DNA of 64,000 bases from the NCBI GenBank assembly GCA_910890315.1, contig CAJVGD010000001.1:1240001-1304000 (forward strand), read 5' to 3'. Positions 773 through 61,775 of the stretch are shown here, one piece after another. The notes under the pieces were generated by a model. It made no database searches, was not told the DNA's origin, and saw only the letters and a list, made by a program, of their open reading frames with translations. The position numbers were made by a program, and so were the translations under genes. The first letter of the stretch is position 1, and the number at the start of each line of letters is the position of its first letter. The DNA is from Serendipita indica DSM 11827. Lineage: Eukaryota; Basidiomycota; Agaricomycetes; Sebacinales; Serendipitaceae.

Positions 773-2446
773 TTACGAAGCATTGTGAGAAGCCTTTTCT
801 TCTTCTGGCAAAGTTGTGGGCCTTAGACGAGGGACGCTTTGTAAGGGAATGCCACTCACTGGTTGCGCCACTTGAACAACCTCTTGCTGAACTGCATCTG
901 GATGAAGAGTCGTAATGTGTCTCCGAAGATTCTGGCGCGTGAGAACCTTTTCGCAGATTTCGCATTGCTTCTTTGGCTTCTTCTTGCGGTTCACATGATC
1001 GGCGAGCAAGCCCAGGGAGGTATATCGCTCGAGGCTACGTGGGTCCGACATATGTCAGCGGTAGCACAAAGATACACACGCCTTACTCACCACCCATTCT
1101 TCTTGCATGCTCCATTGCAAGCAAATGGACGGTACTCGAAATGCGCTCTGGCATGTGCGGCTGCTCTGTCCCTCCTGGAGCACCTGTGATCACACGGTCC
1201 ATTCTGATCATCTGCAAAGCACAAGTGTCCCTGGGTAGACTCGTGGAAATATTCAAATCTCGTCGTTGCACCCGGGGAGAGGACGCCACTGACGACGAAC
1301 GGATCGTTGTCATCAAGAGCAGGCTCCATCTCGTCATTTTCACACCAAGTCTGCGTGAGGATGTAAAATGCGAGCAATTGCCGACGGGGTTGACTGGGAA
1401 AGGCTCTCAAGATCCGGTTCCGGATCTCTTCGTTGTCGGGCCGCTGGAAATCTGCCAATAGTCGCTTGAAGCAGTCCGATTCTTGATCCTGGTCGGTGCC
1501 CATGGACTGCTCGTCGGACTCTTCGTTGCTTGTCGCGTCGTTAATGCTTGTGTCCTCGTTTTCCTCAGGCTCGACGATCACTGGTGCATTTTGGGCCTCG
1601 GAATCCAGACCAGGAGGATGCATATGATGCCTGAACAATGTACCTGCGCCGATTTCCAGGATATGGGAATTGACTTGAACTGCTCTATATGAGCTAGGCC
1701 TGATCTCCCAGGAGACACGTACCAATATGGGTACCATCTATAAGGAAGGCTGCGCGACTGTCATCGACACGAGGAAAGTATTGGAATACTGTGGCGAGGT
1801 GGGGAGAATGTGGGGGGACATAAACATGATCCACGACCTGGTGAATAGACTGGCCGGTGGGTACGGACTCGGGCTCGCTCAGGGGGAGTGGCGACACGAG
1901 ATGCGGCATGTCTTGAGGAAGCCAGTACACTGGCGCTGACTGGTGGACATCCGACAACTGGCCAAGAGCGACGAGGTTGTGTCCAGCTACAACGATTTCT
2001 CCTTGGATATTACCCATGGTGGTTATTGGTCTTGATGGGGGGATATATGCCGCATGAAGAGGTCTGGCGCTATGGTTGGGGGTTGGCCAACCAGCATCAT
2101 TTGAATTACTTGAGCGTGCGAAATGCGGATGGTCAATATAGGGAGCACTTTGAGCTGTATGGTCGGTATCTACGGTGAAAGAGGTCTCTGCGGTGTTCCC
2201 AGGAGGATCAGCCCCAGGGTGCCAAGTAGATCTAGCTGGGGGAGGATAGCAAGCCTGGTCGCGATGATGTAGGTAGGGTGGTGTATATGAAGGGTATACA
2301 GGCGCGCCATCATGTTCGCGACGTTGATTTTGTGTCGAAAATCTGAAAGGAAGAAAATTGGGATTCTCAGGTGCTCTCTGGTCAGCATCACCAGAACCTG
2401 AGCCGGGATTTGGAGCAAGGCCAGACATCCCTCCCAGCTGAGCCAT
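773..2446 (-). CDS. C2H2-type zinc-finger protein A (lineage family)
   Basis: Three exons: 2446-1723, 1679-1091 and 1034-773. The introns are 1680-1722 (donor GTACGT) and 1035-1090 (donor GTGAGT). The spliced length is 1575 bases, giving 524 aa with an intact frame. The N-terminal ~370 residues are rich in Pro, Ser and His and look disordered, followed by an acidic stretch. The C-terminus holds three Cys/His modules. The first starts CFADDQNGPC and ends HARAH. The second has Cys at FACNGAC and a further Cys whose codon is split by intron 2, ending LADHVNRK. The third is a good C2H2 finger, CEICEKVLTRQNLRRHITTLH. A nuclear DNA-binding role is inferred from the fingers only. The paralogues are genes B-F in this window. 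I chose the ATG at 2446 because it opens the longest frame that splices cleanly. Confidence 0.8.
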
Positions 2447-3537
2447 GCCTAGTATTTCTGAAAGTGACTAGGTCGAGGCCGCGTACCCTTTCGACGTTGG
2501 AGCGAGGGTCGAGTCGCCCCCGACCGGCTGCTTTATAAGTAGATGCAAGAGACTGGCAAGCGGCGGCCGAGGGAAATATATACGAGCAGCAGGAGGCGGT
2601 CTGCTGGTTCGGTGCGCACCCGTGGTGAGACGCCCAACGAAGGGCATGTGGAGTAGTCGGAGTCTGGCAGAACCCATGGCGCGCAATTGCGTCGAGACTG
2701 CCAAAGGAGGTACCCCAGTTGCCTGTCACGAGATATCCCCAGCGACATGTATGTACTCTATAAGTGATACGCGACTTCTTCAAGTATAGGTCCAAAGGCT
2801 CGCGTGGCCAAGATGCCCCAGCAGGGGTGCATTCTGCGTAAGATTCTGACTATGGGTTAGCCGTGCTGTGGGCAAGGGTTTCGTTTGTACGTCTTCTCCG
2901 AATCGCCGAGGCAACAACTAACTACCTACGGCCCATAAAGATTGTGTAGAGAGAAATCCTGTGGGGCGTAATGAGGTCCAATAGCTATCAAGCTCGATGT
3001 TGGGACGACGGAATACCGAAGGCCTTTGTCAGATTGACGTCCTCGGGAAAATGAACAGGTAATTCGGAAATGAGATCTTTGCAGTTAATATGATTATTTC
3101 GCAGAAGTTTATTTGAAGACGTACCAATATTATATGGAACGTCCTCTTCGACCATGCTCGATTCCCGCTCTTGTTCCGGGTGACCGAGTGGCCAAGCGGC
3201 ACATGAAGGGATATTGCAATTCCATGGTTGCGCTGCGGCCGAAGTGAAGGTGGGCCCAAATTCAGATTGTCCATTCGCTGCTAGTTGGGTTTTGTCATCG
3301 GCTTTGCATTGGTGGCTTATTTACTGCGACTCAAATCGTGTCCGGAAACGTGGTTCGTCTTCTTCTTGACAGGTTTTCCCACGACGGAGCCGAGTATAGG
3401 ATTCAGTCGTCTGACTCCCTCCAATGCGAATGATCAGGTGAACTGTCAACCGTTCACAGGTGACATGGTCGCATGACCTTGATCTTGCAACGAACCAGAA
3501 ATGGGAAACAAGAGGTGGAATGGACGAACTTTTGTAT
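2447..3537. other. Intergenic stretch between C2H2 gene A and PER1
   Basis: About 1.1 kb without a supported gene. It must contain the promoter of gene A, which is transcribed leftward, and the 3' end of PER1. A short segment near 3181-3200 resembles a tRNA A box, but no matching T-arm or acceptor stem follows. Confidence 0.45.
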
Positions 3538-4606
3538 TCAGGAGGACTTGTCAGCTTCTTTCCAGGACGCTTCCAATGCGTCATGAAGCAGGAAGCGGTA
3601 CCAAAAGAGTACAATTGGTACGGTGGCAAGATGCCATAATGAATGGGCGTCAATAACGCGGCCCCACGGTGGGAAGTCGAAAATCTCTAAAGAGACGGCG
3701 GCTATCATCGACATGCCGAGTAGGAGCGGTACGTAGACAAAGCGAGGTCGATACGTGTTCGACACGCCAAGGAAACGCGTGTATGGAGGATACGGTAGTG
3801 AGTAGGCCATCCACAGGGAATTGTATGCCAGCCCCACAGCGACGTTGACCTTCATGTTCCACCCGTAGTCGAAACGAGGGAGGAGGGTGAGATAAGACAC
3901 GTGTACGAGGAAGAGAAGACTGAAGAGTGCCGCCAGTGGACGCATCATGCGATGGCGCGCGGCGGTGCGTGGCGTATTGTAGAGATGGAAAAGTCGAACG
4001 ATGGTATAAAATAATCCACAGAGCATGGCGAAAGCGGCAGAGAAGTAATCCAGCTTCTCTGTCAGCGGCATGTCTGCACGAGCTTATTAAGAACGTGGCA
4101 CTCCGTACGCTGGTTGATAGCTTACCGCGCGTGTGGAATACTGCGGACCATATCCAAAGATTCACATTGGACAATGTGAAAGCCAAATAGTATGGTTTCA
4201 TTGCGTGCCGTGGGGGCGTCTGTCGTTGAAGTTTCCGCCCACCCTGTATGTGGACATAGAGATTCAAGAGGGAGAAGAATACAGACGCAGGTTCCTGCAT
4301 TCCACAGAATCTCCAAAATGCCCACTTGCCATAGTACTGCTCTCGACGTCTGTTTTCGGCCAACGCTTTGGTTGTCATTTCGTGTGAACATTGATACTTG
4401 CAATCATCCTCGCAACTCCATCTAGTTAATCGTAAGGCAAGAGTCTGCCATTTCGGAGGGTGAGAAGAGGCAATCGTCGCCGGATGACATTGTTGTGCCA
4501 TCCTTTTTGCAAGACACCATTGAAAGGCGCGATCTCTATCTCCTGAGGAGGCAATTATTGGCCCAGCAAGGCATATTAGAAAAATGACTGGATATGTTGG
4601 GCGCAT
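3538..4606 (-). CDS. PER1: PER1-like GPI-anchor lipid-remodelling protein
   Basis: Two exons, 4606-4126 and 4073-3538, with a 52-base intron (GTAAGC donor), giving 338 aa. It begins with a hydrophobic signal sequence followed by SSGDR and a Cys-rich lumenal part containing WSCEDDCKYQC. Then come YGKWAFWRFCGMQEPASV, the PER1/PGAP3 signature, and several membrane segments. The motifs of the CREST hydrolase superfamily are present: SAVFH just before the intron, an Asp in KLDYF after it, and DAHSLWH near the C-terminus. In yeast and animals this family acts in the ER or Golgi to remove the unsaturated acyl chain from GPI-anchored proteins. The length fits the family. The start is the only upstream ATG that supplies a signal peptide. 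Confidence in the family is high. Confidence 0.93.
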
Positions 4607-6116
4607 CTAGGTGTCACCACCTTCGTGTGACTTTGAGAGTGATAATCCCACGGTTGAGATGACACAGATTACAAACTGAGTAATTTTTAAACTCTGCATC
4701 GTAGCCACATCGCTGAGAGTTCGCTCTTGGATATCTCTCTATGGGTCGATGCAAACCAGAATGTCATCTCTGTGTCAGATAACTGGAGAATGGCTTGCAA
4801 AACAATCGGTTTTGAGGCCAACTAAGGCTGCTTCTATGCGAGCCCTTCGACCCCATTTGAGGAGCGGATCGTCAAATCTGAGACAGTACCAATATATCAC
4901 CCTGAAGCACACGTATCTATACTATTTTAAATATAGTAGTAGCGGCGCATGAACGGTTTCAGAGGTTCGACTTCGCCATTCTGAGTTATCGCGTTGTTTG
5001 CGCACCACTACGTCGCTCGGCTATACCGGAAGATATGCAGTGCTTTGATATTACTTTATGTATAATCTATCGTCAACAACTCCTCGATTCTGCGACCCAA
5101 TGTCACGAAAATTCGCGCGAAAGCTAGCCTATTGTTCAATATTCTTGTGGGGTTGATCACCAGGTTTGAGCTAGCCATCATACAATTCTCAGAATATATC
5201 GCAAGGTGGCTTGCAACCGACATTTTAGGTTGCAAGCCGAGACCCTAGACAAGTCGTTCCGGGCCACCTCATCCGTGCCTATGAGTGCTAACATACGCGT
5301 CTTCACTTTGCTCACGTCTGCGATTTGTATAAGTGGCTATCAAAATCGTGGCTTTAACCCCTAAAATCTGGATGTTATCGTGTCGAGAGGGGTATACTGC
5401 TAACCCCCCATCGTTCTCTGGCTCCTGGAAGGCCGGTAATATTGCTACGTGGGCAATACATCGGCGAATCAAAAGATTGATTTATATCAGACACGGCAAG
5501 ATCCGGTGCGCATCCTTATCTATTATCACGGGCCCGGAAACAGATGCCACAAGACCGGGATTCTTAGTTGCGTCTATCACATTCAGTCTTGCTCAGAGCG
5601 TTTAAATCTGTAGCTTCGGAACTTGCATCATCGGACCTTACGAGTGCTCACCCGCCTCCTCCAGCCCTACTTTTCATGTGGCCCCGTCGTGGTTAACGAG
5701 ACGAATTAAATCCAGCTCTTTCCTCACACCTCAAACGTTGATTTCTCGTCGAAAGATCTGCCGTGCGCGGGTTTCTAGTGCCTCAGAGCACAATTTTCGG
5801 GGCTCAGTGGTGAGATAGTTCCATTTCCACGATAATTGATGATAGTTTTAGTCTTGAGATCGCATTCAGATTAGTTTGAGAGCCGGTTACTGCAGGGTTT
5901 CGAGCATCCCGGGCAGCGATCGCGAGCTACCGCACGGGTGCGGGGTAGTTGAGTGCGGGGGGACAAAGCGTTGATCTGATCGAATCCCCTACCTCATGCC
6001 GTAGCGGAGGGTACTCAAAAGCCAAATAAAATGCAGGACAAGGTTACTTAAACCTGACTGCCACCAGGCATTCCACGCATTCTCTGCGCACCATCGAGAA
6101 CTGGTTCAGAGACTTG
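4607..6116. other. Long gene-free stretch
   Basis: About 1.5 kb with only short open frames and no recognisable domain, repeat or transposon ends. It separates the divergent PER1 and C2H2 gene B, so promoters of both should lie here. Confidence 0.5.
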
Positions 6117-6124
6117 TATATAAA
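6117..6124 (+). promoter_or_regulatory. TATA box of C2H2 gene B
   Basis: The sequence TATATAAA lies about 90 bases upstream of the proposed ATG at 6212, a plausible distance for a fungal promoter with a short leader. The assignment is by sequence and position only. Confidence 0.5.
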
Positions 6125-6211
6125 CCCCCTTGCTGCTCCAGGGCTACATTTACTGGCATCTCTTCATCTCCGAACGAGCCTTGGTGCCTCGCGCTCACGT
6201 TGTCGCTCGCA

Positions 6212-8594
6212 ATGAATTCTCCCACCTTCTCCTGGTCTCCTTCTTCCATTGGTGGTTCGTTTTAATTTTCATTTCTACTCGTAATCGAGCTTTCCTAGTC
6301 TCGGCCGCGGGCGCACCGGGGCGACTCTCTGCTTTACTCTACTGGAACTGACTATCTGCATAGATACAGGTGCCACGAGCCCCCAGATTACTTTTCCTGC
6401 GTCTCTATATGAACCAGGATTCCACAACGCGGGCAGTTTCCTGGGCGCAAGTCATCCGGCCTCGTCAAACGTAGACCCCCTGTGGGCACCATCCAGCAGT
6501 CCCGGATCCCATTCTGATAATACCAGTCGTTCATTATGGGGTGATTTCACATTATCTCAAGGCTTTTCATCCCATGACACCGCCTACCCAACCCCAAGCG
6601 ACACGGAGGGTCGGTCCGACCAACATGCGGAAATGCTTTTGACTGAGCAATTCTCTAGGTGGTAGCTATCAATACATCAAACTGCCCTCCAATCACACAA
6701 TGCCGCTCGTCCCATTCTACGATTCCGTTATGCCGGCCAGTAGTATGTCTTTTCGGACTTCTGATCTAGAGTCTCTGATTGCCCTTCTAGATATGGGCGG
6801 ACATGCGTCTATCTCTCAGTCGGACGTCTTGCGTTTGTCAACCCTGTATCCGGAATCCGCGATGCCTCTGACTGTCAAGCATCCAGAATTATCGCCCCCA
6901 AAGTCCAACATGCAACTTGAGACCAGCGAAGACCGTGCGTGCATTGTTGTCGTCTTCCTTCCCTCAATTTACTGAATTATGGCCCTAGAAGTCTGGACCG
7001 AATCGATCTGGGGCAATGTATCCAGATTGGAACGTACACAACCCATGACGCAAGCACAAATGCAACCGGCGCTCACTCTGAGTAACCAAGTCGCCGAACC
7101 AAACCAGTTACCTACCTATCCGCAATCGAGCCTAGAGGCTCAGCGACTTTTGGAGAGAGAGCAGCAATCAGCTCAAGAGGCCTTGAACCAGCAGCGAGCT
7201 CTTTCTCATCTCTATCCTGCTGTGTCACCGTCGGGCTACGCCATCGAAGAGTTTGCCGAGACCGCTCAGCTAAACGACTTCATGCAGGATCGTCTAAACG
7301 TCGGAGCCAAAGAAAATCAAATACTTCCCTCGGGGCTTCCATCTATTCCCATGTTCTCCGTTCGACCTCGCTCCCATCCGTATAGCATCTCATCTCGGTT
7401 CCCCGGCTCACCACGGCTGGTTGCTGGCTCAGGGATGGCAATCCTTGGGGGTGGTCCAGGTACTTTGCTGGAACGTCGGGGAAGCAACCGTTCAATCCGA
7501 CCTCGTCAGACAAAGTCGCCGGCGTTCAACACGGCATACCTTGCGAATCTCCGACGACCGATGCCATTTGCCGCCTCCGCCTTGGAGAGGGCACCGGCAG
7601 ATCTCTATGGACGCCCTCTCAGTGATTCAGTGAGCACTATGTCTATCCCAGGGTCAACGTCCACGGTAGCAGCGACTCTTCCACCGGAAAGCCCGTTTTC
7701 TCCCGCGAGATCTATCAATGTTCTCGAATCGCCAAATCCTCACCGTGCATCTATCACTGGTCAACCCATGTCACCTATCAAGGAATCAACGTCCTTTTTA
7801 TACGGCTCGACGATGCCTCCTGCGTCTATGACCGGTGGCTCGTTACGCCTGGATCGTGGACAAAGTGTTGGACAGATTAGCCGCCCGACAACGGCAACCA
7901 AGACATCCTCTACCGCCGGATCCTCGCCACCCTCGGCTCCGGAGACGAGCCCCAGGATACCAGGTGCATCCTCTACAAACACGTTTGGTGCAGGGCCCGG
8001 TCCAACGACAGAACGACTGCAATCTCAACCGCGCGCCACAGCAACTCGGAAGCGAGCCGACGAAGACATTATCTCTGTATCTTTCCGCACAGAGGGTGAC
8101 TGGCAACGACGAGCTGTTCTGGACAACATTCTTCATGCACCTTTCCTCGCAAACCATACGATGGAACCCAATAACACTGGTGCAGACGACCCACTGACGA
8201 TGGGCTTGGGACCAGAGGGCAAGAGCGTGTACGCAGTCTTCTTGGAACAGACGGAGAGAAGTCAGTGGCGATGCCTCTTTGGTGATCGTGAGCGGCCATG
8301 CGGAAGCCAAGCGACGAGCTTCAAGAGGCTCGAGAGGGCCCTTGATCACGTTCGCAGCCACCTCAACCATCGACCGTACGCGTGCAACAAGGAGTGTCAG
8401 AAGGGGGATGCCTGGTATGTTCCTGCCTTGTCATTTCGGGATAGGGCTGACTCGAGCATAGCGACGCGAGATTCTTTGCTCGCAGCCACCTTCAAGACCA
8501 TGTGAAACGAACAGAAAGCGCATGCTGCGAAACATGGTATGAACAATTTGCGTCAGGTGCCCTAGATGCTCATATGTTTGTAGCGGCCAGGTGA
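6212..8594 (+). CDS. C2H2-type zinc-finger protein B (lineage family)
   Basis: Five exons are proposed: 6212-6254, 6364-6658, 6741-6934, 6989-8414 and 8462-8594. They sum to 2091 bases, or 696 aa, with no internal stop. The first two introns have weaker donors (GTTCGT, GTGGTA), so the 5' end is less certain. The N-terminal ~570 residues are Ser/Pro/Gln-rich with a Gln-rich coiled-coil-like patch (LEREQQSAQEALNQQ). The finger region begins CLFGDRERPC, continues to HVRSH and HRPYACNKEC, and then crosses the last intron. That intron splits a Cys codon as TG|C and leads into DARFFARSHLQDHVKR. This is the same intron position as in genes A and C-F. A transcription-factor role is inferred. Confidence 0.78.
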
Positions 8595-9170
8595 TTCGCA
8601 TCCAAAATATGCCTCGGCATCGATTGGCCCACTGAATATACCCATCTCATTCGACGAATCGTGCTTAGCACATGTCCCACACGTTTCCATCATCGATCAG
8701 TTATAGGTTGCCTGATTACCTTTGTCTTACGACGCTCGCTCTGGGCGTGCATTCCAATACTTCACAGGATTCTCGCTCGGTCGCTGTACATATGAATATC
8801 TCATCAACATTCAGCACAAGAATCTCTTTATCAGTCACACATCTCTATATCACATCTCCTCGTCTTCATTTTGTAATGGATGTTCGTATTGGCATTCTCA
8901 AATAATCACTGTAGCTACTTCTTCCTGAAACGTGCAAGTTGTCTATCAAACTGCATTATCTATTTGAGACCTACGTAACATCTGAATTGGGAGCTTATGA
9001 GCCTGGAAACAATGAGGGAACTGAAATATAAGAAAGGAAAGATTCATCTCAAGAGGGCAAGATCACAGGCAACGTGATCTCCTAGCCTGCTCGCCGGCGA
9101 GGGGGGTAGAGATCACGATGTCTGAGAGCTTCGATTGGGAAGAGTATGTACAGGAACTATAAGTTCGACA
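8595..9170. other. 3'-to-3' intergenic stretch between C2H2 genes B and C
   Basis: Genes B and C converge here. The segment should hold both 3' untranslated regions. I see no further coding or repeat structure. Confidence 0.5.
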
Positions 9171-10162
9171 TCACTTTTTATGACGCTTCTTAATATGTTT
9201 TTGAAGGTCTGACTGTTGCCAGAATCCTTTTGGCTTGGCTTGAATTTCATGACTGATGCTTTCTTGGTCAGCTAGAAACGCAGTTAGTGATAGCTCACCA
9301 CTTATCACAGACATGTGGGCGAGCATCAATATGATGCAATGCATGATAGATTCCTGCAGAGCGGGTGCTCTCGTGGCCGCAGCCTTCAAATTTGCATCTT
9401 GTCTTGTTGCGACCCATATTATTTCTTGTGACGTTTAAGAGCTTGGTTGGAACAGGTTTCCCAGTTTTCCCATAGTATTCCATAAGAGAGGGAAATTGTA
9501 GTTCCACCTGTTCGGGAGGCGTGGCCTCCTGACGCTTATGGGAGCGCTTTATGTTTATAGCCCTGTTGTCATCTTGAACGATTGGTGAAGATAAACCGCT
9601 CGACAAAGATGCTGTTTCCTGGTCGTTAAAATAGTTCTGGTAGTCACTGGATGAACTCTGGACTGGGACAACTGCCGTATTATGGCCTGGAAAACCTGCC
9701 TTGAATGAAATTAGCCTTTGCAAACATCCTCTCTAATGTTTGGAGACTTACTCCATATGTTGAAACACCCAGTATACCCTGGAATTGTTCGGGGGATGCA
9801 GCGACTCCGTATATTCCGAGGTTTGGAAAAGCGTCAGCCGCAGTTGGTTGGTAAGACTGAGCCCATGGAGGCTCTTGGTTGGTCGATTGGATATATTCTT
9901 GCGACGGGAATTGTCCCACCAAGAAGGGCCGCCAGTTGTTGGACCAGGGAGTCTGACTGAGCGTCTCAAAGTCATGGGTAGTGCTCGTCGCCATTCGACT
10001 ATGAATACTTTCTTGATCCATCACATTTGGTGGGGCAATATCCTCGCTCATTGCCGGATGCTGCAATCCAGCGACTGGATAATGGGAATAGCTAAGCGGC
10101 TCTGGCGGGTCGGGTTTGTCAGGGGCGAGTTTATATGGATATTTTCCGGTATTTTGCTGCAT
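9171..10162 (-). CDS. C2H2-type zinc-finger protein C (lineage family)
   Basis: Three exons: 10162-9752, 9699-9299 and 9252-9171. The introns are 9700-9751 (GTAAGT) and 9253-9298 (GTGAGC). The total is 894 bases, or 297 aa, with an intact frame. The N-terminal ~200 residues are Pro/Ser/Gln-rich and look disordered. The first finger is CKFEGC followed by YHALHH. The second reads HVCDK, then a Cys split by the intron as TG|T, and later FWQQSDLQKHIKKRH right at the C-terminus. The spacing in the second finger is enlarged by about ten residues relative to a classical C2H2 finger. It lies tail-to-tail with gene B, but the two finger regions are too different for a recent duplication. Confidence 0.78.
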
Positions 10163-11763
10163 TGTCACGGGAAGACGAAGGAGTCTCGGAAGGGACTGCG
10201 GCGAAGTGCTTGAAATCTTGGGGTCTTAAATGCACTCTCAAAGACCTGTACCAGATTCCCGCAGCGTCAAACTGGTATATGAGCTCATGTAAGCTGATTT
10301 GGTTCACGTATTTCCCGCCTCAATGGATACATCTCTCTGCAGCCTGGTAAGGGTAATGCTGAGCAAGGAAATCAATTAATTCATAGCTCCTGTTATATAT
10401 ATTCTATACTGGGACCAATCACAGCCGGGCCTGCGACGGCAAGTATCCTGGGTTTGTTGACTAACTGGATGGGCGCCAGGGGATTGAGCAGTCTGACTTG
10501 CCAGGTTGAAACCTTCTGTCAATTCTGAACAATTCGAGCCCTGTAGGCTGGTTAGATCTCCCATGTACTTGGGTTACCTATGCTGAATCAGTCTCTTAGC
10601 GCAAAAGCCCCTTGCATTGGATTTGCGGGTTCGAGTACTTGACTGGCACCTCCGAGTCAGAAATGGGTGACCAGACCAACCCTATTGACACGTGTCCTGG
10701 TCGAATTGTGCCAACGTAATTGCGTAAAGTCGGCGTCTTCGCCTTAGGTACTCGGGTGGCTATGGGTCGTGCGCAGCCCTGCTTTGATCAAATGTAAGAG
10801 GACATTATGCATTTCTGTTTGAACGCTGATTTGTTCTGTTGAGCGACGTACTACGCTTTGTCGTCTTCGTTCATGAGGGCCGACCTGCACTCGTGATCTA
10901 GACGAACTATCAGATTGTAAAATTGGAACTAAAGATACGATCTTGTCAGTCGACTGTCGTCTGATGTCCCAGATCAAGTTTCTGATCAATCTCGAGCAGC
11001 TATGTTGGTGAGTGCGTACATTGTGGTTCCAAACACGTTGTTTCTGCGAGTTTTGAGCATGTACGAATTGAGAGAAGTGATTTCATAGAATGGTGCAGGA
11101 GCCTACCTCGGCGAGTCGAATTGCGAGACGCCACGGCGTCCTTGCTGAAGCTCAAATTTGTACGGGAAGCTCCCGACTTCTCCCCTTAAGGCTTGGCGGA
11201 CGTGTGTGTGGGGAGGCTCAATGAGCCGACGAGCTCCTGCCATACGAGAGCCCAGAGACTTCCGGAAATGGGACTGTAACAGGAAATGAGAACGGTTTAA
11301 ACGCAAGAGTGACGTTTTATCCGACAATTGTCGCCAGGGGTGTGCGTGTAATTCTGGTCGATTGGGCGGGAGACGGCGGCGAGAACCAACTAATTCTTGA
11401 AGGAGATTGGAAGAGCAGATGTATCCGGCAGCAGGTTCACACTTCGGATCATGATCATACGATCCGGCTTCTGTAAAATTGACTTCCGAATCGTTCATAA
11501 GCCGACTGGTTGGGATCCGTATCAACGCTCTCCTTCAGTTCGCTCGCATATATTATCCAGTCGTCAAAAGGTAACATTGTGAGCGGCGACCGCAAAAGGT
11601 GGGCACAAAAGTTGACTCTCTACTCTTTGGCACTGACGACGACCTTGGTTTTTGCCATTTGGCCTGTACAACTGTAACAACCAGCAGTTTCCTCTTCTCT
11701 CAGACATCAAGAATCATCATTTGATTATCTGTTTTTATTCTCGTGTCACTATCGCACTCCATC
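10163..11763. other. Gene-poor stretch with possible unresolved minus-strand exons
   Basis: Minus-strand open segments at about 11525-11400, 10989-10744 and 10564-10376 have coding-like composition. I could not join them into a single gene with convincing splice sites, and no domain is recognisable. They could be a small unidentified gene or upstream exons of gene C. Confidence 0.3.
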
Positions 11764-11979
11764 ATGAGTCGCAGCCGCCCACCGAGTCCACCGCGCGCTA
11801 CAGAGGAGCACACCGCCATCCATTTCGAATTCTCCATCGAAACCAGCTCTCCCAAGCGCTCTTCATCAACAGATTCAGCTTCTAGCAGCGCATCGCTCAA
11901 GGCAAGCCGCACAGATTAAAACGGTCAAAGTGCTAAATTCTGATCCTGTCCGCGACTTTTATTTTTTTTAGATCTTGGA

Positions 11980-13554: not shown

Positions 13555-13974
13555 TCTCGTACCCTTGTGGTGAGTTATTCTCCATAGTCTCCCCAATGCG
13601 CGGATTGCGCACTCCTTCATGATGAATCAATCTTTACAGACCTGTTCTGACTCTTATGGAGAGAACGGAGTTGTTATTGCCTATTTCTGATCCATTATCT
13701 TCTGCTTCGAACCCCTGTCAAACAGTACTGACTAGCCATGCAGATCTCGAGACCGCCAGTTTGCATAGAAACCTACATCAACACTCGAATATTGTGTATA
13801 ATAGCCCATACACGATGCTATACATTATTTGGCATTCTTCACGTCGCATCATATCAGCTCGCCCGTCGAGCTCGAGGTCAGTTACAATAGACAGGAACCG
13901 AACCGACTCAATCATCCATTCACAACTCAAGAACCTAATCGTTGGTGTAGCTATATTACGAATACAATATTCCT
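13555..13974. other. Convergent 3' region between calcipressin and aldo-keto reductase 1
   Basis: About 420 bases between two convergent genes. It should hold both 3' untranslated regions. Nothing else is seen. Confidence 0.5.
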
Positions 13975-15319: not shown

Positions 15320-15355
15320 GTTTGATACTGTCGAGAGATGCGTTCCAGAGAGCAT

Positions 15356-25770: not shown

Positions 25771-25771
25771 A

Positions 25772-33336: not shown

Positions 33337-34942
<1,606 letters not shown>

Positions 34943-47516: not shown

Positions 47517-48664
47517 ATGGCCCCACAACGGCGCAGCGCACGATTACAAGAGACAGAAACCGAAGAAACGCAGAGTGTAGAGGCCGGGACAAGCAAAAAG
47601 GTACCGAAGAGCATCAACAGGCCAGTTATCTATGTAAGACAGCGTTCAAACCCGGCATCTCGCAACTCCTCCCCTGCTCCGCCCACGATCCCAACACCGC
47701 CGTGGCTTCACTCGCCCCTTCCAAGCCAATCTGGATCCGAGCATGATAATAGCATCATCACCACCCCACATCCTGCACCAGAGCCTGCCCCTCCGTCCGC
47801 AACGCCCGTTACTCCTGCCGGCATCAAGAATACGATAATGAGGGCCGACCCACAATTTGCAAAAACATCTGATCCTGGTTTGTTGCTGCGTGGTGTCGGC
47901 CCAGATGACTTTGATGGGACGCCTCCCCCACGGGCAGAAGCGTTTCAATCCCGTGCGCGCTCCATGTCACCGCCAGAGGAAGACTTGGAAGTGCTTCAGG
48001 CAGCAGGCGTAGTAAACGGAACGATGGTACCGCTCGGTCCTCTCACGTGCACCACACTCTCTTTGCACGATGCGATGATGCTTCGGATGCAGCTCCAACA
48101 CGATACGCATAGGCTCAATGTCCTGGGCGAGGTCCTCAAGTCCATGCAGGAGCTGAAGATGCCGCACCATGATATGGTCTGGAACTTGTTGCTTGTCACG
48201 GAGGGAGGGTACAATTGTCCTTTCCCCCAATGCAGCCGCCATCAGGAGGGTTGGACGCGTGCGGATCGTACGCGCGCACATATTTATGCGGATCATCTCT
48301 TGATTCGCTACAAATGTGACAAATGGTGAGTGATCGCCTTCCTCTCTCAGTTCTTCTCTGATAATCTCGGCAAAGTAATTCGTACTTCAAGAGGGAACAA
48401 GACTTTAATATCCATGTTGCAAGTCATGATAAGCAACCTGCCTTCGAATGCCCAGTGTGGTTCGCCATCTAACTTATATGTCCCCTATTGGCCACTCACG
48501 TCCCCTCTAGTAACAAGTCATTCCCGAAAAAATTCAATCTCAATCGCCACCTGCGGCAAATTCACGATTATAAACCCACAACCAAGACCCAGTCATCTCA
48601 GGCGCTTCAGCAACAACAGCAGACGCCTCGCGTTGGACCTGTGCCACCACCTCCAGCAGCTTAG
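47517..48664 (+). CDS. C2H2-type zinc-finger protein D (lineage family)
   Basis: Two exons, 47517-48325 and 48511-48664, give 963 bases, or 320 aa. The N-terminus is Arg/Pro/Ser-rich and disordered. A helical segment (LSLHDAMMLRMQLQHDTHRL) precedes the fingers. The first finger is CPFPQCSRHQEG ending HIYADH. The second is a perfect classical finger, CDKCNKSFPKKFNLNRHL ending RQIH, with spacing C-x2-C-x12-H-x4-H. The intron 48326-48510 (GTGAGT) splits the second Cys codon as TG|T, as in the other family members, but at 185 bases it is about four times longer. A Gln/Pro-rich tail ends the protein. It is probably a nuclear DNA-binding protein. Confidence 0.8.
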
Positions 48665-49701: not shown

Positions 49702-49983
49702 TTCGTGGTCGTTTGAGCGATTCCTTGTAGCCTATAATGGTCAGAAGATATGAAATATTGAATGGGAGACATATACGGTAACAGCGGAACAATCGTGGCA
49801 AGGTCCAGTCAGTGGCGACGCCGGTGCTCACAACCTGGAGCCGTCCTCACCACCACCACCTCGTAGTTTCCACCAAATATCTCTAATTTCCAAGAAGGCG
49901 AACTCACGGTCAGGACAAGGTACCAAAACGAGACTTGCGCGCGATATCTGTGACGCCGGCGGATCAACTTGCGGACAGACGTA

Positions 49984-52372: not shown

Positions 52373-54984
52373 ATGGAGATTGAACACTGGTGTCCTGTCT
52401 GCGACCGCCAAATCCTGCCTGGGTCCAGCGTCGCTCAACCCCAAGTGTCTACCTCTGGCGATCAGGGGTCAACCATGTCGAAAGATGGTACGACTCTTGA
52501 TGCCACCCCCACAACAACCTCTCCGACGGCGAAAGTCGACACGGGTGCACTCACTCAACCACGGGCATCCACACCTTCCGGCGTACGCAAACGAGTCACC
52601 GCAGGAGCCGGCAAAGCTTCGCGACCTGGTCTGCGTCGAAGCAAGACGACAAACGGACACGTCTTCACCAAAAAAAGAGCGGCCACGCATGCTGACGTCG
52701 ATAATTTGATCCAAGAATTCATGCTACCTGCCAATCAGAGCCAGGACGACGGAACTGCGACGGGAGCGAAGGCGAGCCGGATGAGGACGATAACACCGGA
52801 TACTGATGGATGTGTTCATGCGCAAGAGGGCGCTGTGGAGCACATCGGTGTATTGCGCAGGGTCGAGAGCGATCGACCGCGCAGTCCCAGAACCAACGAC
52901 CAGTTTGCGCTGCAACCACAGGTATGCCGGTTTTCTTTCCTAACGGTGTGGCTTTGATCAATTGTTGATACGCTTTCCAGGCACCCGGAAATGTAGATAC
53001 GCCTGCAGCCCCACCAGTCCCCCGAATCAAGTCGAGCAGTCGGTTGAAGAATGGGAAACCCAGACCAAAGGCTATCAATCTCTCCACACGCCCAGACGCA
53101 AAGGAAGGCAGCCCTACGAAGAAGATTACTGAATCCTCACAAAGTCCCTTGGGCCAAACTCCTGATGGCGAACGCGCCAATCCGGTCCTAGGGGACAAGG
53201 TTTCACCCCGCGAATTCTCTCATGAAAATTTGGCCGGTCAACTCTTTTGCTCGCAGGCTTGCTACGACGTGGCAGTTCGAGGAGACTCTCCAGATACCTC
53301 GCGACCCCGTACCCCTCTTCCTTCTGGGGACGCCGACTCCGTGGTTGTCAAGTGTAGTGAGCTTAGATACGACATGCCCTGGCTTCGTCCTGGTGCCATT
53401 CGACGAAGGTCACACGCCTTGTTTGGCTTTGACGATGAAGAGGATCCCGACTCACCCTTCTTGCCTTCTCAGGACGACGAGCAAGATGGCCTGTATGCTC
53501 CACCCCTTCGCCCATTCGGACCACCGGCTGAGGAGCCGGCCCAGCCCAAATTGGGAGATAACCGACGACTTTCTACCACCACCGAGCTTTCCCTTTCCTT
53601 CCGTCGCACTCCGGGAGCCTTGCAAGCTTCCCCAACCAAAGGATCCCCAATCGAGACCGGGCGGCCGCTTCTGTTCGAGCGTTCTTCTCACCGCCGGCGC
53701 CAGATTCAGCGCGAAAACGAAGTGGTTGAGAAGAGGCGGCATACGGTCGCATTCGATGGCGTGGAGCGGAGCGATTCCACCCGAACACCGTGGTGGCTTG
53801 TCGATGAGCGCGAGGACTGGAAGACGTACTGGGAGGCTCGGGAGACAGGCTTAGAGCTCACGTTTGAAGAGTGGCAGATTCTGCGCCATCGCAAGCGCGT
53901 GGAACAAGTTCATCGAGAGGAACAAATGCAACGTTTCTACCAAAGCTCTCAACGCAACGCGGCAGATGACCACAAGCTCGCCAAAGCGCCTCTCCTCATC
54001 CGTGTCGCCAGCCAACCAATGCTCCATGGTTTCAAGGCTATGCCCTCTCCAGACCGCTCTACACCAACTAGCCCGACATCCCAACGTCCTCGCCCCTTGA
54101 GCAGGTCAAGCGCTCCACTCGAGATGACGTCGTCGAAACGTACTAGTGCGAAATCGAGGCCGGTGTCTGAAGGACTCAGGATGACCGCAGTTCTTCCCCG
54201 ACGTAGTTCTGCCGGTGTCGACGAGATCCGAGCTTGGGATGAGGTCAACGTCGACTCGTCCCAGCAAACACGACCAGAGATGTTGCCGCAGGGTACTTCC
54301 AAACCTGCACTGCGCCGCAATCGCAGCCTCAAAGCTCTCGCCACCATTATCCCTGTGGAAGCCGAGATGCACGATATCAAAACAGTCTCACCTATCGGAC
54401 CTGGACCTCGTAGTCCTCTAGGAATGCACTCCATCTGCGCCGCGGACGTAACCACCGCTACCGGCATCCTTCAGCGAGTCGACGAGAAAAAGGCGAAGCG
54501 ACATAGCCTCCACGACATTCCAAGCGATGTGTCTGGTCGTGGTAACCCAAGAGCGTTGCCTCCCCTCATTATCAAGGAGCACGCCTCGGTGCGCCTATGC
54601 CCAAGTGCTACCTCCGCCGCACCGCAAAAGCCGACGGAAGATGCGATCACAGAGAAGATGAGTAGTAGTCCCGAGGCTATCACAGCTACGAGCATCAGCG
54701 GGAGCGGGAGCAGTGGTGAGGAGAGTGCCTGCGATCGCATCACCCCACGCCCGACGAAGAAGACTTCAAACACCCGACCGCTTTCTACTGGCGCTCTCAT
54801 CAGTGCCATCAACCCCCTCAGACTTGTGGAAGCAAAGGAGGAGTCGACAGCGTCGCTTTTCATCAAGAACTATCTTCCGACCTTTGGAAGCGTCCCAGAC
54901 CAAACGACAATCTCTCATCGTCAACCCACTCAGACGACTGGTCGCACCAGCCTTTGGGGCATCTTCGGGTCCGCTAAAAACTAG
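52373..54984 (+). CDS. Large disordered protein with CxxC and CSxxC motifs (possibly ECL1-type)
   Basis: Two exons, 52373-52921 and 52981-54984, with a GTATGC intron, give 850 aa in an intact frame. It begins MEIEHWCPVCDRQI and, about 270 residues later, has QLFCSQACYDVA. A CxxC near the start plus a CSxxC resembles the ECL1 life-span regulatory factor zinc-binding site, where the halves normally sit close together. Between and after them the protein is Ser/Pro/Arg-rich and mostly disordered. One possible folded helical patch is WKTYWEAREGTL-like sequence followed by LTFEEWQILRHRKRVEQVHR. The ECL1 relation is an inference from two short motifs. Otherwise the function is unknown. Confidence 0.72.
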
Positions 54985-55441
54985 AGGAGATTGGGAAACG
55001 CCAACACGCCACGACACCAGCAGCTACAATAACTAATCAAGAACGATATATTATCCCTAATCATTTATCAGTCCGCGTGGGCTGCAGTTTCCCATTCTCC
55101 TCGCCGCCAGTCTCCATAACCGACACTGGTCAACCTCTCCTATCATTCCATCGGGCTCTACCGTCTATATCACCTCGTAATTTCACTTGCCCAATAATCG
55201 TCACATAATGCTCTCGACTCTCGTCGGTTTTTTGCATGCCATCCCTCGCCGCCAAGCATTTCATTTGGGCATATCTCTGTTTCATCTCTCTCTCTCTGGT
55301 CATTCAAGCCGTCCGTCGGTGATATAAACGTTCACATACTCGAGCATGATGCCAACCGATCCATTGTACCACTACAAACTTTCCGCTCGCCGCTCCGCAA
55401 CCCGTGTATTGGTATAATGGACCGTCGCGTCGTAGCTCGCG

Positions 55442-55785
55442 TCGTTGCTTTCCTTTGTCTCTTTCTCTCCATATGACCCCATGTGCCCGTTTTTCTTGGG
55501 TCAATTTGTTATAGGGCTCGGATTCAATGTACATGGTACACGGATCCACTGCCACTGGGGTCTCGAAAGCAAAAATGTAAAATAGATGTAAGCTTGCAAT
55601 ACGAATAAGCTATATCGGTATCTTAGCTTCTGTTAATCTGTGCGTTGATCCAATGAGACTGAATTGAGTAAATTGACAGACTTAGATGAATTGCTGTCTC
55701 GGCTCTCAGACTTTTGCAGGTGTGGTCCGCCATGAGGATGAAGAAGGACACCGGCCAGTGGAGCTGGCATGCAATCTTGAAAAGT
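55442..55785 (+). repeat. Direct repeat copy 1
   Basis: It shares with copy 2 the block TTGCTTTCCTTTGTCTCTTT, then ATGACCCCAT, TGCCCGTTTTT, a conserved TTCAATGTA, GGGGTCT, and ATGTAAAATAG. Looser similarity continues to about 55785. Copies are separated by about 800 bases, start to start. There is no open frame in common, so this looks like duplicated non-coding sequence. Confidence 0.75.
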
Positions 55786-56239
55786 ATAAACTGAAACGTG
55801 TTTGCGCGCTTGCTTCCTTGATGGCATGGTGGAAGGTTTGATTCTGTGAATCAATGTCCATTTCCGGGTAGGTTGTTTGCACCGACAAACATGAGTCGTT
55901 TTCTCAACTCGCTCATGAAAATCTTCATCCCTTGCCCAAAAAAAAAGTCAGTGGCTAGGTGATGGCTCGCGTTGGGGGTTGAGTTGAACGACCAACTGCT
56001 TGTCCAATATCCGCACCGAACATAGAGAGAAGGTGCTGACATGATAGCCTCAAAGTCAAGGTTTCTAGCGACATGAAATTCTCCCATCGTGTCCAATGCG
56101 ACCCTCAGCTCTTCTCAACGCCCACGAAGCTGGCTGGCTCATCCTTGGATATCAAGGTGTCACTTCAGTGGGCATAAATGAACGAGGCCTCTCCTATTAG
56201 AGAGCTATTACACATGATATCTTCTATATGAGTCATGGT

Positions 56240-56580
56240 CGTCTTTGCTTTCCTTTGTCTCTTTCTCTCTACATGACCCCATATGCCCGTTTTTTTTCGG
56301 GTCTCTTTATCATTTGGTCTGGAGTTCAATGTATGTGGATGCACAGAACTCCGCCGTTTGGGGTCTTGAAAAGCCAAATGTAAAATAGCTGTAACCTTTG
56401 CAACGCAAATCACTCCTAAAATTGCTTCCGTGAGTATCAAAAGAAGGTTTGAGGCCGAATTGAGTGTGATCCACTGAATTTTCATGAATTGCGTTTTGGG
56501 CTTCTAACTCGTTATGGGCGTGTCCCGCCTTGAGGCTCGTTCCCCGGCGCTTCAGAAGGTGAGTGAAAGTCACAGTATGC
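56240..56580 (+). repeat. Direct repeat copy 2
   Basis: Same orientation as copy 1 and diverged by many substitutions and small gaps. The best matched part is the first ~150 bases. The right edge fades near 56580. Confidence 0.75.
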
Positions 56581-57815
56581 GCTTATTGTTATAGAGTTGC
56601 ATGACACGTTTACCAATGTCCTCCTTTGTGGAAGACTGGACCGAGGTATTTTTTTTGCTTTTGGTTAGTCTGGTACTCAACGCAAAAAACTTTTCTTCCA
56701 CCATGACCGCACAGCGCTCTGAAGAGCATTCGAGCATGTACTCGAAATACTACAAGTTGACGACCTAGCATTGTGGGTTTATCCTCGAACTTATGGAGCT
56801 CGAACACTCTTGGCTGACGAGCGCAGCGAAGCTGACTAACGTGGCGGGTGCAACCAATATTTTCAAGAAAAGAGCACCAGAATGCAGCTTTCAATCTAGC
56901 TGGTGCGCTCACAGGTTGCTTGTTCACAACCTGGCATCTACGACCTCGCCTCGTAGGATACAATGACCCCGAAGTGCTCGAGCGGCCCAGGATGTCTCAG
57001 CCGACAAGCCAGTGGTTATGTTCCTTTGCAACTTTCGTTCCTGCTATGTCGTCGTTCGGCTTGCACCCTGTATAATCAAACAACCACACCTTGCAAGTAG
57101 AATAACCGTACTGTCAACAAAACGGAGTATGTCCATTCCTATACCAATACTGGACGACTGTCTTGACTTTGAGACACAGCCCGTGACAACAGCTTTTGCC
57201 ACCATCATTGCTACCATCAAACCGACAAGATGGCTCCAGGATCGTAACTTGGCAATCAAGAAGAGATTTATTTGTGTTCGAAGACCGAATAAACGCTCGA
57301 TTATAGCCAACAGCAATCGTGATGGGACGATGACGTTCGTCGGAGGGTTTTGATGCCTATTGGGCCGAACCCTCTCCCTCTCGATGTTGAATGTGTATGT
57401 CTCTTCAATTCCACTCAACCCGTCATTCCCCAATTGATATAGATTGCCAGGGTAATGCCGGTCACCCTCCAGCGGCACAGGGTCCCATTCATTAGCGACA
57501 TATCAACATATCGTATAATTCAAATTATCAGCTCGATGCTTGACTGCACACGGTGGAGGATTCCCTCACGTGCTCGGGACTCAGTCAATCTCCGATACTC
57601 CGCTTCAAACGTCCTCACCTGCCTATCTTCGCCCGGATTAAGAATTCTGTGGAAACAATGACTAGCCAAAAGCTAGTTCGAATTTTAACTTGGTTCGCAC
57701 CCACGATAGCCCCAAAACCAGGAACTCCCGTCCATTGGCCACAGCAAACCTCTATCTGAATCGACCGCTCGATAAGCAACTCCAAACGCACTTAATATTC
57801 ATATCCTAAGCTAGA

Positions 57816-59177
57816 ATGTTCCCCTCTCCTCATCATGTTCAATTCCTCCCGGACTGGAGCCCAGACGGAGTCCATTGTGCGTACATCCTATTCCCGACTG
57901 ATGGATATCCGACCCTGCTGACGCCATTTGATGTCCATGTCTCAGACTATGACGATTCGCAGCATCTAGCGATGAGCACCATGCCGTCAACACAACAGCC
58001 ATTTGTTGCTAGCGGGGAATCCGATCATTCATTGGCGCCTGTAGTTCCAGGTCTACTCTTTGAACCTTCTTTTACTCAGACGAACGACGGAGACAGCTCG
58101 GTTCACATTCTGTCTCAGATGCCTGAGTTGGACGGCGTTGGATACTTTTCTATGCACATGCCGCATTTCAGAAACGCCCAACCATATGAACCGACCACCT
58201 TGAGAGGCAAATTACCTCAAACACTACACACAGGTTCCACTCCTGACGAAGGTAAGTTGGCTTTGTCATCTCGACAATCAACCTGACACTTCAACAGAGT
58301 ATGCAAGGACACCTGATTTCTTTCCCGCTGACATCTCGGGAGAGCGCATGTTCCAGAACGTCTCCTTTGCAACTCCACCTCGACCAGGCAACTCGTTCAC
58401 TCCCGACGCAAAGGTCATTCAAGGGGGTACATATGCGTCTGACTCCGTCACCTCTCCTGAGGACTTTGCGGATATCGACCGGAGTGGCGAGGTTTTGTCT
58501 CATGTCGAGCCACAAGCAATGGGGCCCTTGACAGAGCCACCGTCCCAGGGACGCTTTCATTCCAATAGTACAAAAAATCAACCACCACTCACTATGGAGA
58601 GTGATTTCGTCACACGCATCATGCAAGTCCTCACGCCGGACGACCGTGATCTGGTGAAAGACATTGTTGGAGCTCCATGGTACCGAAACAAGAAAGATGA
58701 GCAGATTCTGGGCAGATACAGAGAAAGGCTCCGAAAATTGCCCTCTGGTGGAACGAGCGCGAGCGTTTTCTCCCTTTTTATTATTCGTGGACGGAAGAAC
58801 CGCTGCACGATATGTGAAGCGCTAGGCGAAGATTGGGAGGGCGACTGCTGCCTTGACCGCACCCTCGGACATGTACGCGAGCACTTCAACTGGTATCCCG
58901 TCGATGGTTACTCGTGCGAGACGAAGAAGCGGGAGGTCGAGAGAGTTCGCAAGATTAATTCCAAGCCTCTTAACTGCAAAGCTTGGTGCGCGTTTCCTGG
59001 GGTCGTGCTCTCCTTGACGGTTGACGAACTTGCAGTGGTCGTCGTTACACTTATCAGAATGAGGCGCGCCATAAGCGCACATGCATGGGCATCCAGGTGC
59101 TCGCAAAGGAGGTTATACCAAGGAAGGCCCCGAAAGGAAAAAGGACCGCTCGCGTACCCCCTAGCCCCGATTCTTGA
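57816..59177 (+). CDS. C2H2/C2HC-type zinc-finger protein E (lineage family)
   Basis: Three exons: 57816-58251, 58298-58985 and 59036-59177. The introns start GTAAGT and GTGCGC. The first ~200 residues are acidic and Pro/Ser-rich. A helical domain follows with VLTPDDRDLVKDIVGAPWYR, then RERLRKLPSGGTS and VFSLFIIRGRKNR. The first finger is CTICEALGEDWEG ending GHVREH. The second is CKA, Cys split as TG|T by the intron, then GRRYTYQNEARHKRTC. It therefore ends H-x3-C rather than H-x3-H. A basic tail closes the protein. Gene F, 1 kb downstream, is the closest relative and shares both the helical domain and the finger layout. Confidence 0.8.
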
Positions 59178-60184
59178 TTCGTTGGCACCAGGGCAGCTTA
59201 GGTCTCTCTTCAGCGGCTCTCCGTACTAACGTTCTAATAAACTTTGCGGTTTGGTAGTCTAGGTGTCTCTTCAGTGGAGTATCTTAGTTCTACTAACTAT
59301 TATTCCTCTTTCCAATCACACTTCATCTGGTCCTGGTTTCCATGGCCGTTATGTTTCGCTTCAGTGTGCATAACCAGACTACGGCTCGCTTGTAGGAAGG
59401 TGCTGCGTATCACCTTTTCTATACTGTGCTTGATGAGGGTATGGTATTAACATCTATCTGCACCCGCCACGACCAACAAGTTCAGCGAAATGAGTGTCAT
59501 ATCATGGGGATGCAACAACCTCGATACGTATGTCCAGTCATTTCTCGCCCTGAAGCCTCTTCATTCACCTTTGCCACAGGCCACCTGAATCTCACGATCA
59601 TGCGGGTGCGATTCTTGCGATATAGGCAATATTTTCGACTCTCGTATACGAAACATTGCAAGTTTCATCGATAGTCACCTCACAGCATTCCATGGCATCC
59701 TGATACACGGTTAGTTCGGCGAGTATGGCGACAAACCAATGATCAGATTCAAGACTCGGCCTGTCTCGTAGGTTTGATCAATATCGTTCATTCTCATTTG
59801 GCCACGGTCGACTCGTCATGGCTGAGTACGTCGAGGGCGTGAGTTCGTCGCATTAGCCATATTCATTGGTATCAAAATGTTCTACATAACTGAGTCTTTT
59901 CGTTCCAGGCATTTTCCAAGGCATCGCTCCCCTGCAGGACGCTGGAGGACTGGAGGAACTCGCACCTCCTCATCTCTACTTGGAGGCAACCCCGAAAGCG
60001 GCATATAATAGGCAGCTTGTTATGTTTCTCCATCAACTCCTGACTTAGACTTCTCCTTGTCAGACCTGTCTCCCCTCGTTCTGCGTTATAGAGCAAGAAC
60101 CGTCCCTTTACCTTCGCCAAACTCAGCGAACCGAATCACACATCCACACAGCAACTCTATTCGTTTGATTAAGCCTGCTCCGGG
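59178..60184. other. Intergenic region between tandem genes E and F
   Basis: About 1 kb. It should hold the 3' end of E and the promoter of F. No gene or repeat is seen. Confidence 0.5.
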
Positions 60185-61775
60185 ATGGCTATGTTCTCGT
60201 TTTCTCTTGACCAGCGAACCTTTGCAGACCAGAACACTGCTGTCGGTAAGTAGCAAACGGGTCTACCTGTAAATTATCTGCTAATCGTCTCCAACATACC
60301 TCACAGATGAATCTATTGGGCCGGCTGCAGCTCTCGTGTACCACCTTCAACTAGCTTCACGACCGGCTTTGAGTCTGGCTATAACCTTCCAACTGCGCCA
60401 TATGACGAGTCCGACGACCCATTTGAGATCTCTTCTCATTATATACATAATGGCGGTGGCGTCGGAGATGTTCAGTCTCAGAACTTGCACGACACTCAAT
60501 TACCAGAAAACTTCAATTTCTCCGGACAGACGGAACCTTCAGATGTCGGCCTATCGCATCTCATGGTCGACGGCTTGTTTCAACTCCGCCCAGGTTATCC
60601 CACTCAGTATGGTAACCGAGGCTGTCTTCTCAAGAACCTATCTGATCTTCTCCTAGGCTATGCCGAACACCCTGCGTCGGACTCGCACGACCTTGTCGAA
60701 GGAGGATATGTGAACACTCAATCCTCCACACTGTTTGGAAATCATCTGGATAGCGCTCTGTCCAACGCGTTTGAACAGGTCTTTCCCAATGGCCTCACGA
60801 TTCATGATTATCAATCTAGACATACTTTCGAGACGAGTTGGTGAGCTTGGTCATTTCGACGCATGTCTTACCTGGTGATAGGTCCCATACGGCAAAATGA
60901 ATTCAACCCAGCCGGAACGGCTACTGGGAACATGCGGCTTATCACTGTTCCACCAATTCAACCCAGAGATGCGTTATTTGGCCCCATGGCGGGACCCATT
61001 CAAGAGCATACGCCTGTCCAGGCAGACGATGGGCATAATGAAGTCAGCGATGGAGTTGAAGGTGAACAGGACGGCTCTACTGTGTTCAATTCTACCTATA
61101 CCCCTGGAGCACGGACTAAGACATGGTATGATGGCCAAGGAACGATTCATCCCAAGCTGGAACAGGCCCCTCTTCTACCAGGAGACGATAAGATTTTAGG
61201 GATGCTCAAGGCACTTCCACTACCGATAGGTACCATAGTTCAAGCTGTGGTCCAATTGGATTGGTATCAAAACAAGGGAAAGGAAGAGGTCCCAGACGAG
61301 TATAAGGAGGCCCTTCGGCAAATGCCGACTGCCGAGATGCAGCAGAGCATATTTTCCTTGTTCCTTGAGATCAAGCGAAGTCGGGGTAGGCCAAGATATC
61401 ACTGTCGGATTTGCACCTGGACGGAGGGTGGATGGAAAGGCGAATCATCGTCCACCAGGGCTCTTGGACATGTACGCAAAGTGCACTTTAACCGATGCTC
61501 CGAAGAAGGTTACTCCAACGCGAAGACCAAGCAAGACGTTCAGAACGTTCGTGAAAGGAATTCCAAGGGCCTCGTATGTAAAATTTGGTGCGCATGTTCT
61601 GGGACTGCTTTGCAGTGGTTGACGGACTTATAGCGGCTGCGGCTACACGGTTCAGAATCGATCGCGCCATATGAAGCTCCATATGCGTGATGAGAAACAT
61701 ACAAAGAAGCCCACTTCAAAGAAACCTCACATGGGGAAGGCCACTCGACGTCCCCCCTCTGGATCCAACTCTTAA
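60185..61775 (+). CDS. C2H2-type zinc-finger protein F (lineage family), 5' end uncertain
   Basis: The 3' half is clear. A helical domain (KILGMLKALPLPIGTIVQAV, then LDWYQNKGKEE, QSIFSLFLEIKRSRGR) is followed by CRICTWTEGGWKG ending GHVRKVH. CKI follows, then a Cys split as TG|C by the intron 61588-61633, and GCGYTVQNRSRHMKLH. The stop is at 61773-61775. The 5' half is acidic and low complexity like gene E (TGFESGYNLPTAPYDESDDP). The exon starting at MAMFSFSLDQRTFADQ, ATG 60185, has a perfect GTAAGT donor in phase 1, but every nearby acceptor gives phase 2. Either a weaker donor is used or the frame is broken. The next junction also needs a weak donor (GTTGGT). Confidence 0.65.

Follow-up and report, generated by a model that had tools for sequence, protein, structure and literature searches.

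A conserved intron pair splits the second cysteine codon of consecutive zinc fingers in a family of C2H2-type genes of Serendipita indica

The window analysed here, a stretch of 64,000 nucleotides of the root endophyte Serendipita (Piriformospora) indica DSM 11827 (contig CAJVGD010000001.1, positions 1,240,001 to 1,304,000), contains six dispersed C2H2-type zinc-finger genes, A to F, which a previous sequence-only reading had described as sharing one intron within a zinc-binding cysteine codon. Our results indicate that the shared feature consists instead of two serially homologous introns, intron 1 in the codon of the second cysteine (Cys2) of finger 2 and intron 2 in the Cys2 codon of finger 3, both in phase 2 and dividing the codon as TG/Y (the slash marks the splice junction, Y being C or T). 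This conserved pair is genuine and family-wide, and it is wider in occurrence and differently built than formerly described. We regard it as likely that the pair is ancestral to a large family of three-finger C2H2-type genes that expanded in this lineage by duplication of DNA.

Each of the six reported TG/Y junctions was found at its position, with GT...AG borders on the coding strand (minus for A and C) and TG joined to C or T, giving cysteine; these are candidate splice junctions, predicted from the DNA. In an alignment of the three fingers, the reported intron fell in finger 2 for A, B and C and in finger 3 for E and F, D having introns in both, and every one of the six genes displays a phase-2 TG/Y intron in the Cys2 codon of finger 2, of finger 3 or of both. 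The gene structures are listed below, with coordinates given as positions in the window.

1091..1737, minus strand: gene A, exon encoding finger 1 plus the first half of finger 2 (bounds of the listed open frame; exon start not fixed)
1035..1090, minus strand: gene A, intron 1, 56 nucleotides, phase 2, TG/C in Cys2 of finger 2
773..1034, minus strand: gene A, last exon, completing finger 2 and encoding finger 3 in one piece (intron 2 absent); stop codon at 775-773
8415..8461, plus strand: gene B, intron 1, 47 nucleotides, phase 2, TG/C in finger 2
8462..8536, plus strand: gene B, middle exon, 75 nucleotides, symmetric (2-2), completing finger 2 and beginning finger 3 (one half of each)
8537..8583, plus strand: gene B, intron 2, 47 nucleotides, phase 2, TG/C in finger 3, overlooked in the previous reading
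8584..8635, plus strand: gene B, last exon, with the second half of finger 3; stop codon at 8633-8635
9253..9298, minus strand: gene C, intron 1, 46 nucleotides, phase 2, TG/T in finger 2; no third finger downstream
9171..9252, minus strand: gene C, last exon; stop codon at 9173-9171
47517..48325, plus strand: gene D, first exon, with the N-terminal region, finger 1 and the first half of finger 2
48326..48375, plus strand: gene D, intron 1, 50 nucleotides, phase 2, TG/T, acceptor AAG; start of the former 185-nucleotide intron
48376..48459, plus strand: gene D, middle exon, 84 nucleotides, symmetric (2-2), with one half each of fingers 2 and 3; formerly taken as intron
48460..48510, plus strand: gene D, intron 2, 51 nucleotides, phase 2, TG/T in finger 3
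48511..48664, plus strand: gene D, last exon; stop codon at 48662-48664
58986..59035, plus strand: gene E, intron 2, 50 nucleotides, phase 2, TG/T in finger 3; no intron in finger 2, which looks degenerate
59036..59177, plus strand: gene E, last exon; stop codon at 59175-59177
61588..61633, plus strand: gene F, intron 2, 46 nucleotides, phase 2, TG/C in finger 3; finger 2 looks degenerate
61634..61775, plus strand: gene F, last exon; stop codon at 61773-61775

The single 185-nucleotide intron formerly assigned to gene D corresponds to two introns (50 and 51 nucleotides) flanking an 84-nucleotide coding exon, and this hidden exon is the reason why D was the size outlier of the earlier list. With the middle exon included, gene D scores 35.6 bits against zf-C2H2 over two stretches, compared with 26.9 bits over one stretch without it, and the exon was modelled likewise in the paralogues L072-L074 (L numbers designate loci of the genome). 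The one-intron model of gene D was rejected, as it scored 28.7 vs 43.1 for two introns under a profile that included the D paralogues L072 and L073. The observation that an unspliced reading gives tryptophan holds in all six genes and has no evidential weight, being forced by the sequence: a codon that begins with TG and runs on into a GT or GC donor always reads TGG. The description of the genes as otherwise very different does not apply to all of them: protein similarity was detectable between A and B (31.8% identity over 148 amino acids, E-value 2.5e-12), E and F (36.2% over 199 amino acids, 1.4e-34) and B and C (31.5% over 89 amino acids, 1e-6), these E-values coming from a search among the six sequences only.

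The genome from which the window derives (24.7 megabases, 55 contigs) was searched at the protein level, the queries being the exons that end at the split cysteine in genes A to E and in two further members. The searches yielded 131 rows corresponding to 64 distinct places, 60 of which were modelled with none, one or two introns of free phase and position, and the products were scored by a profile; the four places outside the modelling were two within the control locus L003, L005 (read separately) and L038 (E-value 0.69, two stops), which was dropped. Among the introns of the best automatic models, 84 of 102 were phase-2 TG/Y. A curated reading of the 60 loci found both introns in 36, intron 1 only in eight (A, C, L029, L058, L060, L095, L096 and L098), intron 2 only in four (L011, E, F and L036) and neither in one (L087), while three loci were other C2H2 genes (L093, L094 and L099) and seven were degenerate or not settled (L055, L056, L064, L065, L068, L090 and L092). 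In the remaining locus, L012, intron 2 is present and intron 1 was not settled, with the donor in place and the acceptor one base out of frame; the copy may be broken, contain a sequencing error or use another splice form.

Counted by finger, the Cys2 codon of finger 2 was split in 44 of the 46 modelled loci open to judgement, the exceptions being L011 and L087, and that of finger 3 in 41 of 44, the exceptions being A, L058 and L060. Five more loci with a TG/Y intron were identified, L005 and L117 having both and L107, L113 and L116 having intron 1, and after later additions finger 2 was split in 49 of 52 loci and finger 3 in 43 of 47, L118 contributing an intact finger 2 and L107 an intact finger 3. 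A typical member has three fingers, the first of which, where visible, is uninterrupted, and the middle exon spans 69-102 nucleotides, with a length that is a multiple of three in 35/35 measured cases (L012 and L032 left out). For comparison, decoys were prepared by shuffling the DNA 3' of the first donor: two TG/Y junctions were obtained in 0/129, and at least one in 96/129, which is accounted for by the first donor having been kept unshuffled. The best gain in score among decoys was 10.5, vs a median of 41.8 in the real sequences (range 4.9-62.2; 43 loci scoring >40 bits).

Individual loci depart from the common pattern in several ways. L052 retains intron 1 in the gene even though the split codon now specifies asparagine (AA/C), and it was counted as split. 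The same change from cysteine to asparagine (AA/C) with the intron in place was observed in L056, whose middle exon additionally contains a stop. For L032, intron 1 came out in phase 0 in the automatic modelling, and the TG/T reading was adopted by hand. Intron 2 of L025 and L063 has an apparent GC donor (GCAAGT) vs GT in their relatives, the read-through codon still being TGG, and intron 1 of L023, at 167 nucleotides, is approximately three times as long as the median of the family, inspection by eye revealing no hidden exon in it.

Regarding the growth of the family, every judged copy other than L087 and L118 has at least one intron, which points to duplication of DNA and not of mRNA. Members are locally clustered, as exemplified by six core members and one broken copy inside 17 kilobases (kb) on contig C5. 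The tandem paralogues L014, L017 and L019 (C5:159-176 kb) are a patchwork of shared stretches: upstream, L017 resembles L014; part of its finger 1 and its intron 1 resemble L019 instead, and at intron 2 it differs from both. Its intron 1 is 96% identical to that of L019 while its exon 1 is nearer to that of L014 (0.90 vs 0.80). This mosaic suggests, from the sequence pattern, that gene conversion may have acted among them. The expanded families of P. indica have been described in the same terms, as duplication at the DNA level, in the accessible portion of PMC3192844; the words 'zinc finger' and 'C2H2' are absent from the main text of that article, to which our consultation was confined.

Recognition of these fingers by domain profiles is uneven. 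With respect to the curated cut-off of Pfam PF00096 (zf-C2H2; 25.2 bits), gene D with its middle exon (35.6 bits), L091 (35.2 bits) and L005 (30.5 bits, partial) were above, whereas the core member L017 (13.9 bits) and gene A (15.9 bits) were below, and genes B, C, E and F gave no PF00096 match up to an E-value of 1; gene A was narrowly above the zf-BED cut-off (20.7 vs 20.6 bits). The spliced products were also read for the ligand pattern Cys-x2-4-Cys-x11-13-His-x3-5-His/Cys, which is present in finger 3 of A and of B, in fingers 2 and 3 of D, in E (as C2HC) and in F, and is lacking in C (18-residue loop) and in finger 2 of A and B, where there is no second His/Cys at the standard spacing. 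Zinc and DNA binding by the proteins of the family are predicted properties.

Taken together, these findings are best explained by an ancestor that would have carried two short spliceosomal introns, one in the Cys2 codon of finger 2 and one in that of finger 3, both TG/Y and in phase 2. Gene copies would have been made by DNA duplication, often in local clusters, with the introns carried along, and a few members, including A, C and E/F within the window, would have lost one of them. The introns would be ordinary and most likely constitutive, both having to be spliced in order to complete the zinc sites of fingers 2 and 3. The sequence models themselves show where the introns lie and in which phase, that the middle exon is symmetric, how large the group is and which loci depart from the pattern; splicing itself and its constitutive nature, the loss of an intron as opposed to its never having been gained, and the ancestry of C, D, E and F are points that we infer.

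Common ancestry, as implied by a shared phase and position, stands firmly in A and B; in the other four window genes it is likely, short of proof. A core-family profile from which A and B had been omitted, together with C, D, E/F and the distant groups, assigned 83.0 bits to A and 81.4 bits to B. In a tree of 50 rows, in which L012 was scored as having both introns, two changes sufficed for intron 1 (47 rows scored) and two for intron 2 (44 rows scored). Some links to divergent loci were also detected: outside the window, L095 matches the core member at C5:174304 (E-value 3.5e-5) and L091 matches that at C5:164477 (2e-4), and gene C matches L070 (3.9e-4); ordinary C2H2 genes appear in the match lists of L095 and L091 too, with E-values of 0.005-0.03.

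Several observations weigh against common descent of the whole group from an ancestor with the intron pair. The tree is weak: of its 47 inner branches 26 are open, its end branches are very long, and when 'both introns' is treated as one label it needs six changes. The profile used to score the gene models was derived from 19 first-pass two-intron models, including B, L072 and L073, and the results lean to it. Neither L087 nor L118 has an intron in its intact finger 2, and some splice sites are weak (acceptors AAG in D and GAG in L060; GC donors in L025 and L063). The core-family profile gave 24.3 bits for C, 27.8 for D, 21.8 for E and 15.9 for F, vs 19.7-42.2 for unrelated C2H2 controls; sequence alone does not place these four genes in the family, and the shared introns are therefore the main evidence for them. 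Further, a TG/Y intron is present in three (L005, L107 and L113) of 24 loci drawn from zf-C2H2 listings (L001-L008 and L100-L115, among 111 places listed), and these three were then counted as family-like, L005 by the core pattern, L107 by likeness to L058 and L060, and L113 by the look of its finger 1. L005 itself had slipped through the finger scanner, which requires canonical spacing, and was spotted by eye. The border between the inside and the outside of the family is thus partly circular.

These observations bear directly on the possibility that introns were gained independently at TG/Y in unrelated C2H2 groups, the site suiting the spliceosome through its exon-final G before GT. Such parallel insertion would account for C, D and E/F being tied to the core family by no more than generic C2H2 similarity and for the TG/Y introns among the zf-C2H2 listings, where L107 and L113 were judged family-like only by eye; in addition, the splitting of one codon in consecutive fingers requires either that a module was duplicated or that introns were inserted twice at the same type of site. 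Conversely, the finger-internal introns of genes held outside the family were at TG/Y in 0/6 cases, being in phase 0 in L002 and L093, in phase 1 in L003 and L100, in phase 2 at +23 in L106, and in phase 2 at +8, by eye, in L111 (L094, with an intron between fingers, and L112, which could not be read, are not among the six). The intron pair with its 69-102-nucleotide exon in 36/60 loci, the two tree changes per intron, and the presence of the intron in L052 without the cysteine codon argue in the same direction. The case against a general TG/Y insertion hotspot is suggestive, not closed, and we consider independent gain improbable.

A different question is whether the middle exon serves as a cassette, whose skipping would join the start of finger 2 in frame to the end of finger 3, half a finger from each, and yield a two-finger protein with an intact hybrid finger. 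The exon is in phase 2 at both ends and divisible by three wherever measured, the skipped product holds a C..C..H..[HC] finger in 33/35 cases (a loose pattern), and the protein previously proposed for gene D is exactly the skipped form, which surpasses the PF00096 cut-off (26.9 vs 25.2 bits). A precedent exists in the accessible parts of PMC3805531 and PMC6028546: zas1 of S. pombe is likewise a fungal C2H2 gene in which splicing sets two- or three-finger proteins, although there one in-frame intron holding a finger is kept or removed, whereas the present family has a symmetric exon between two introns, a candidate for alternative use. The symmetry, however, follows automatically from two introns at homologous positions, and exon skipping represents 1% of coding events in a transcript-based count in Schizophyllum commune, a second, junction-based count giving 1,527 exon-skipping events in coding regions (both in the portion of PMC5034255 available). 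The symmetric middle exon is a better switch candidate than intron retention, and yet we hold its use as a cassette to be unlikely by a wide measure. Equally doubtful, in our estimation, is the broader idea of fingers as interchangeable half-modules, with two- and three-finger variants produced during root colonisation through splicing and intron-bounded exchange; if true, exon skipping or recombination within the two introns would give an in-frame protein with an intact hybrid finger.

Regulated intron retention yielding finger-less forms, which the sequence-only reading had put forward as a switch, is the most remote of these proposals, given that sequence tests (intron length modulo three, stops, and intron vs exon identity) revealed no conserved retained product. 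A retained intron would indeed truncate the protein or wreck the finger, an argument that applies to most introns, and retention is the commonest splice event of coding regions in S. commune (44% of coding events, in the same portion of PMC5034255). Nonetheless, intron lengths fall in all three classes modulo three, and across 12 paralogue pairs intron identity mostly tracks or falls under exon identity, the exception (L017/L019 intron 1, 0.96) fitting gene conversion. An in-frame stop lies inside retained intron 1 in 38 of 43 cases, vs 28 and 24 in the other two frames (Fisher p 0.001), an excess that would fit quality control, or elimination of retained transcripts, better than a designed product; for intron 2, the stop is inside in 23 of 39 cases, equal in every frame and without bias. 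A stop immediately after the tryptophan occurs in 17/43 cases for intron 1 and 9/39 for intron 2, because GTRA donors in phase 2 read TGG TRA, and it is conserved in neither.

As a separate observation on this genome, two high-affinity phosphate transporter genes lie approximately 20 kb apart, at C16:201-202 kb and C16:223-225 kb, and an exon of one of them is identical to PDB 7sp5 over 247/247 residues, an entry that we take to be PiPT of this fungus.

Conserved introns that split fingers are already known, the new part being the serial pair in the same metal-ligand codon. In the plant IDD (INDETERMINATE domain) C2H2 genes, as far as the accessible text of PMC1586020 goes, one intron splits ZF4 throughout three species except in ZmIDD3 and ZmIDD4, which resembles the present situation; the difference is that IDD genes have one conserved in-finger intron, ZF2 being split only in maize ID1 and sorghum SbID, whereas in our family consecutive fingers are each split in the same codon by one of two serially homologous introns (the IDD genes were compared at the level of the finger and not of the codon). 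The PR and VQR introns of WRKY genes are likewise conserved within a zinc-binding domain and serve as lineage markers, but they belong to an unrelated plant domain, and the PR intron parts the WRKY section from the zinc-finger section with no ligand codon split, according to the available part of PMC4350883. No description of an intron in the second cysteine codon of a finger, nor of this family in P. indica, was found in a literature search that left most subscription papers and all supplements outside, and the accessible portions of PMC2837044 and PMC2865497 held nothing of use on the question.

These findings have a practical consequence, since fingers may be overlooked or wrongly joined in gene models and domain searches when two of three are cut inside a metal-ligand codon: a finger of gene D was lost in the earlier model, and other automated models of the family could drop the middle finger likewise. 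The family also offers a clean test case for whether serially homologous introns in repeated domains arise by duplication of a module or by repeated insertion, and for whether a symmetric finger exon is ever skipped. For the root endophyte itself, the intron pair constitutes a lineage marker for a fast-evolving, regulator-like family whose sequence identity has faded.

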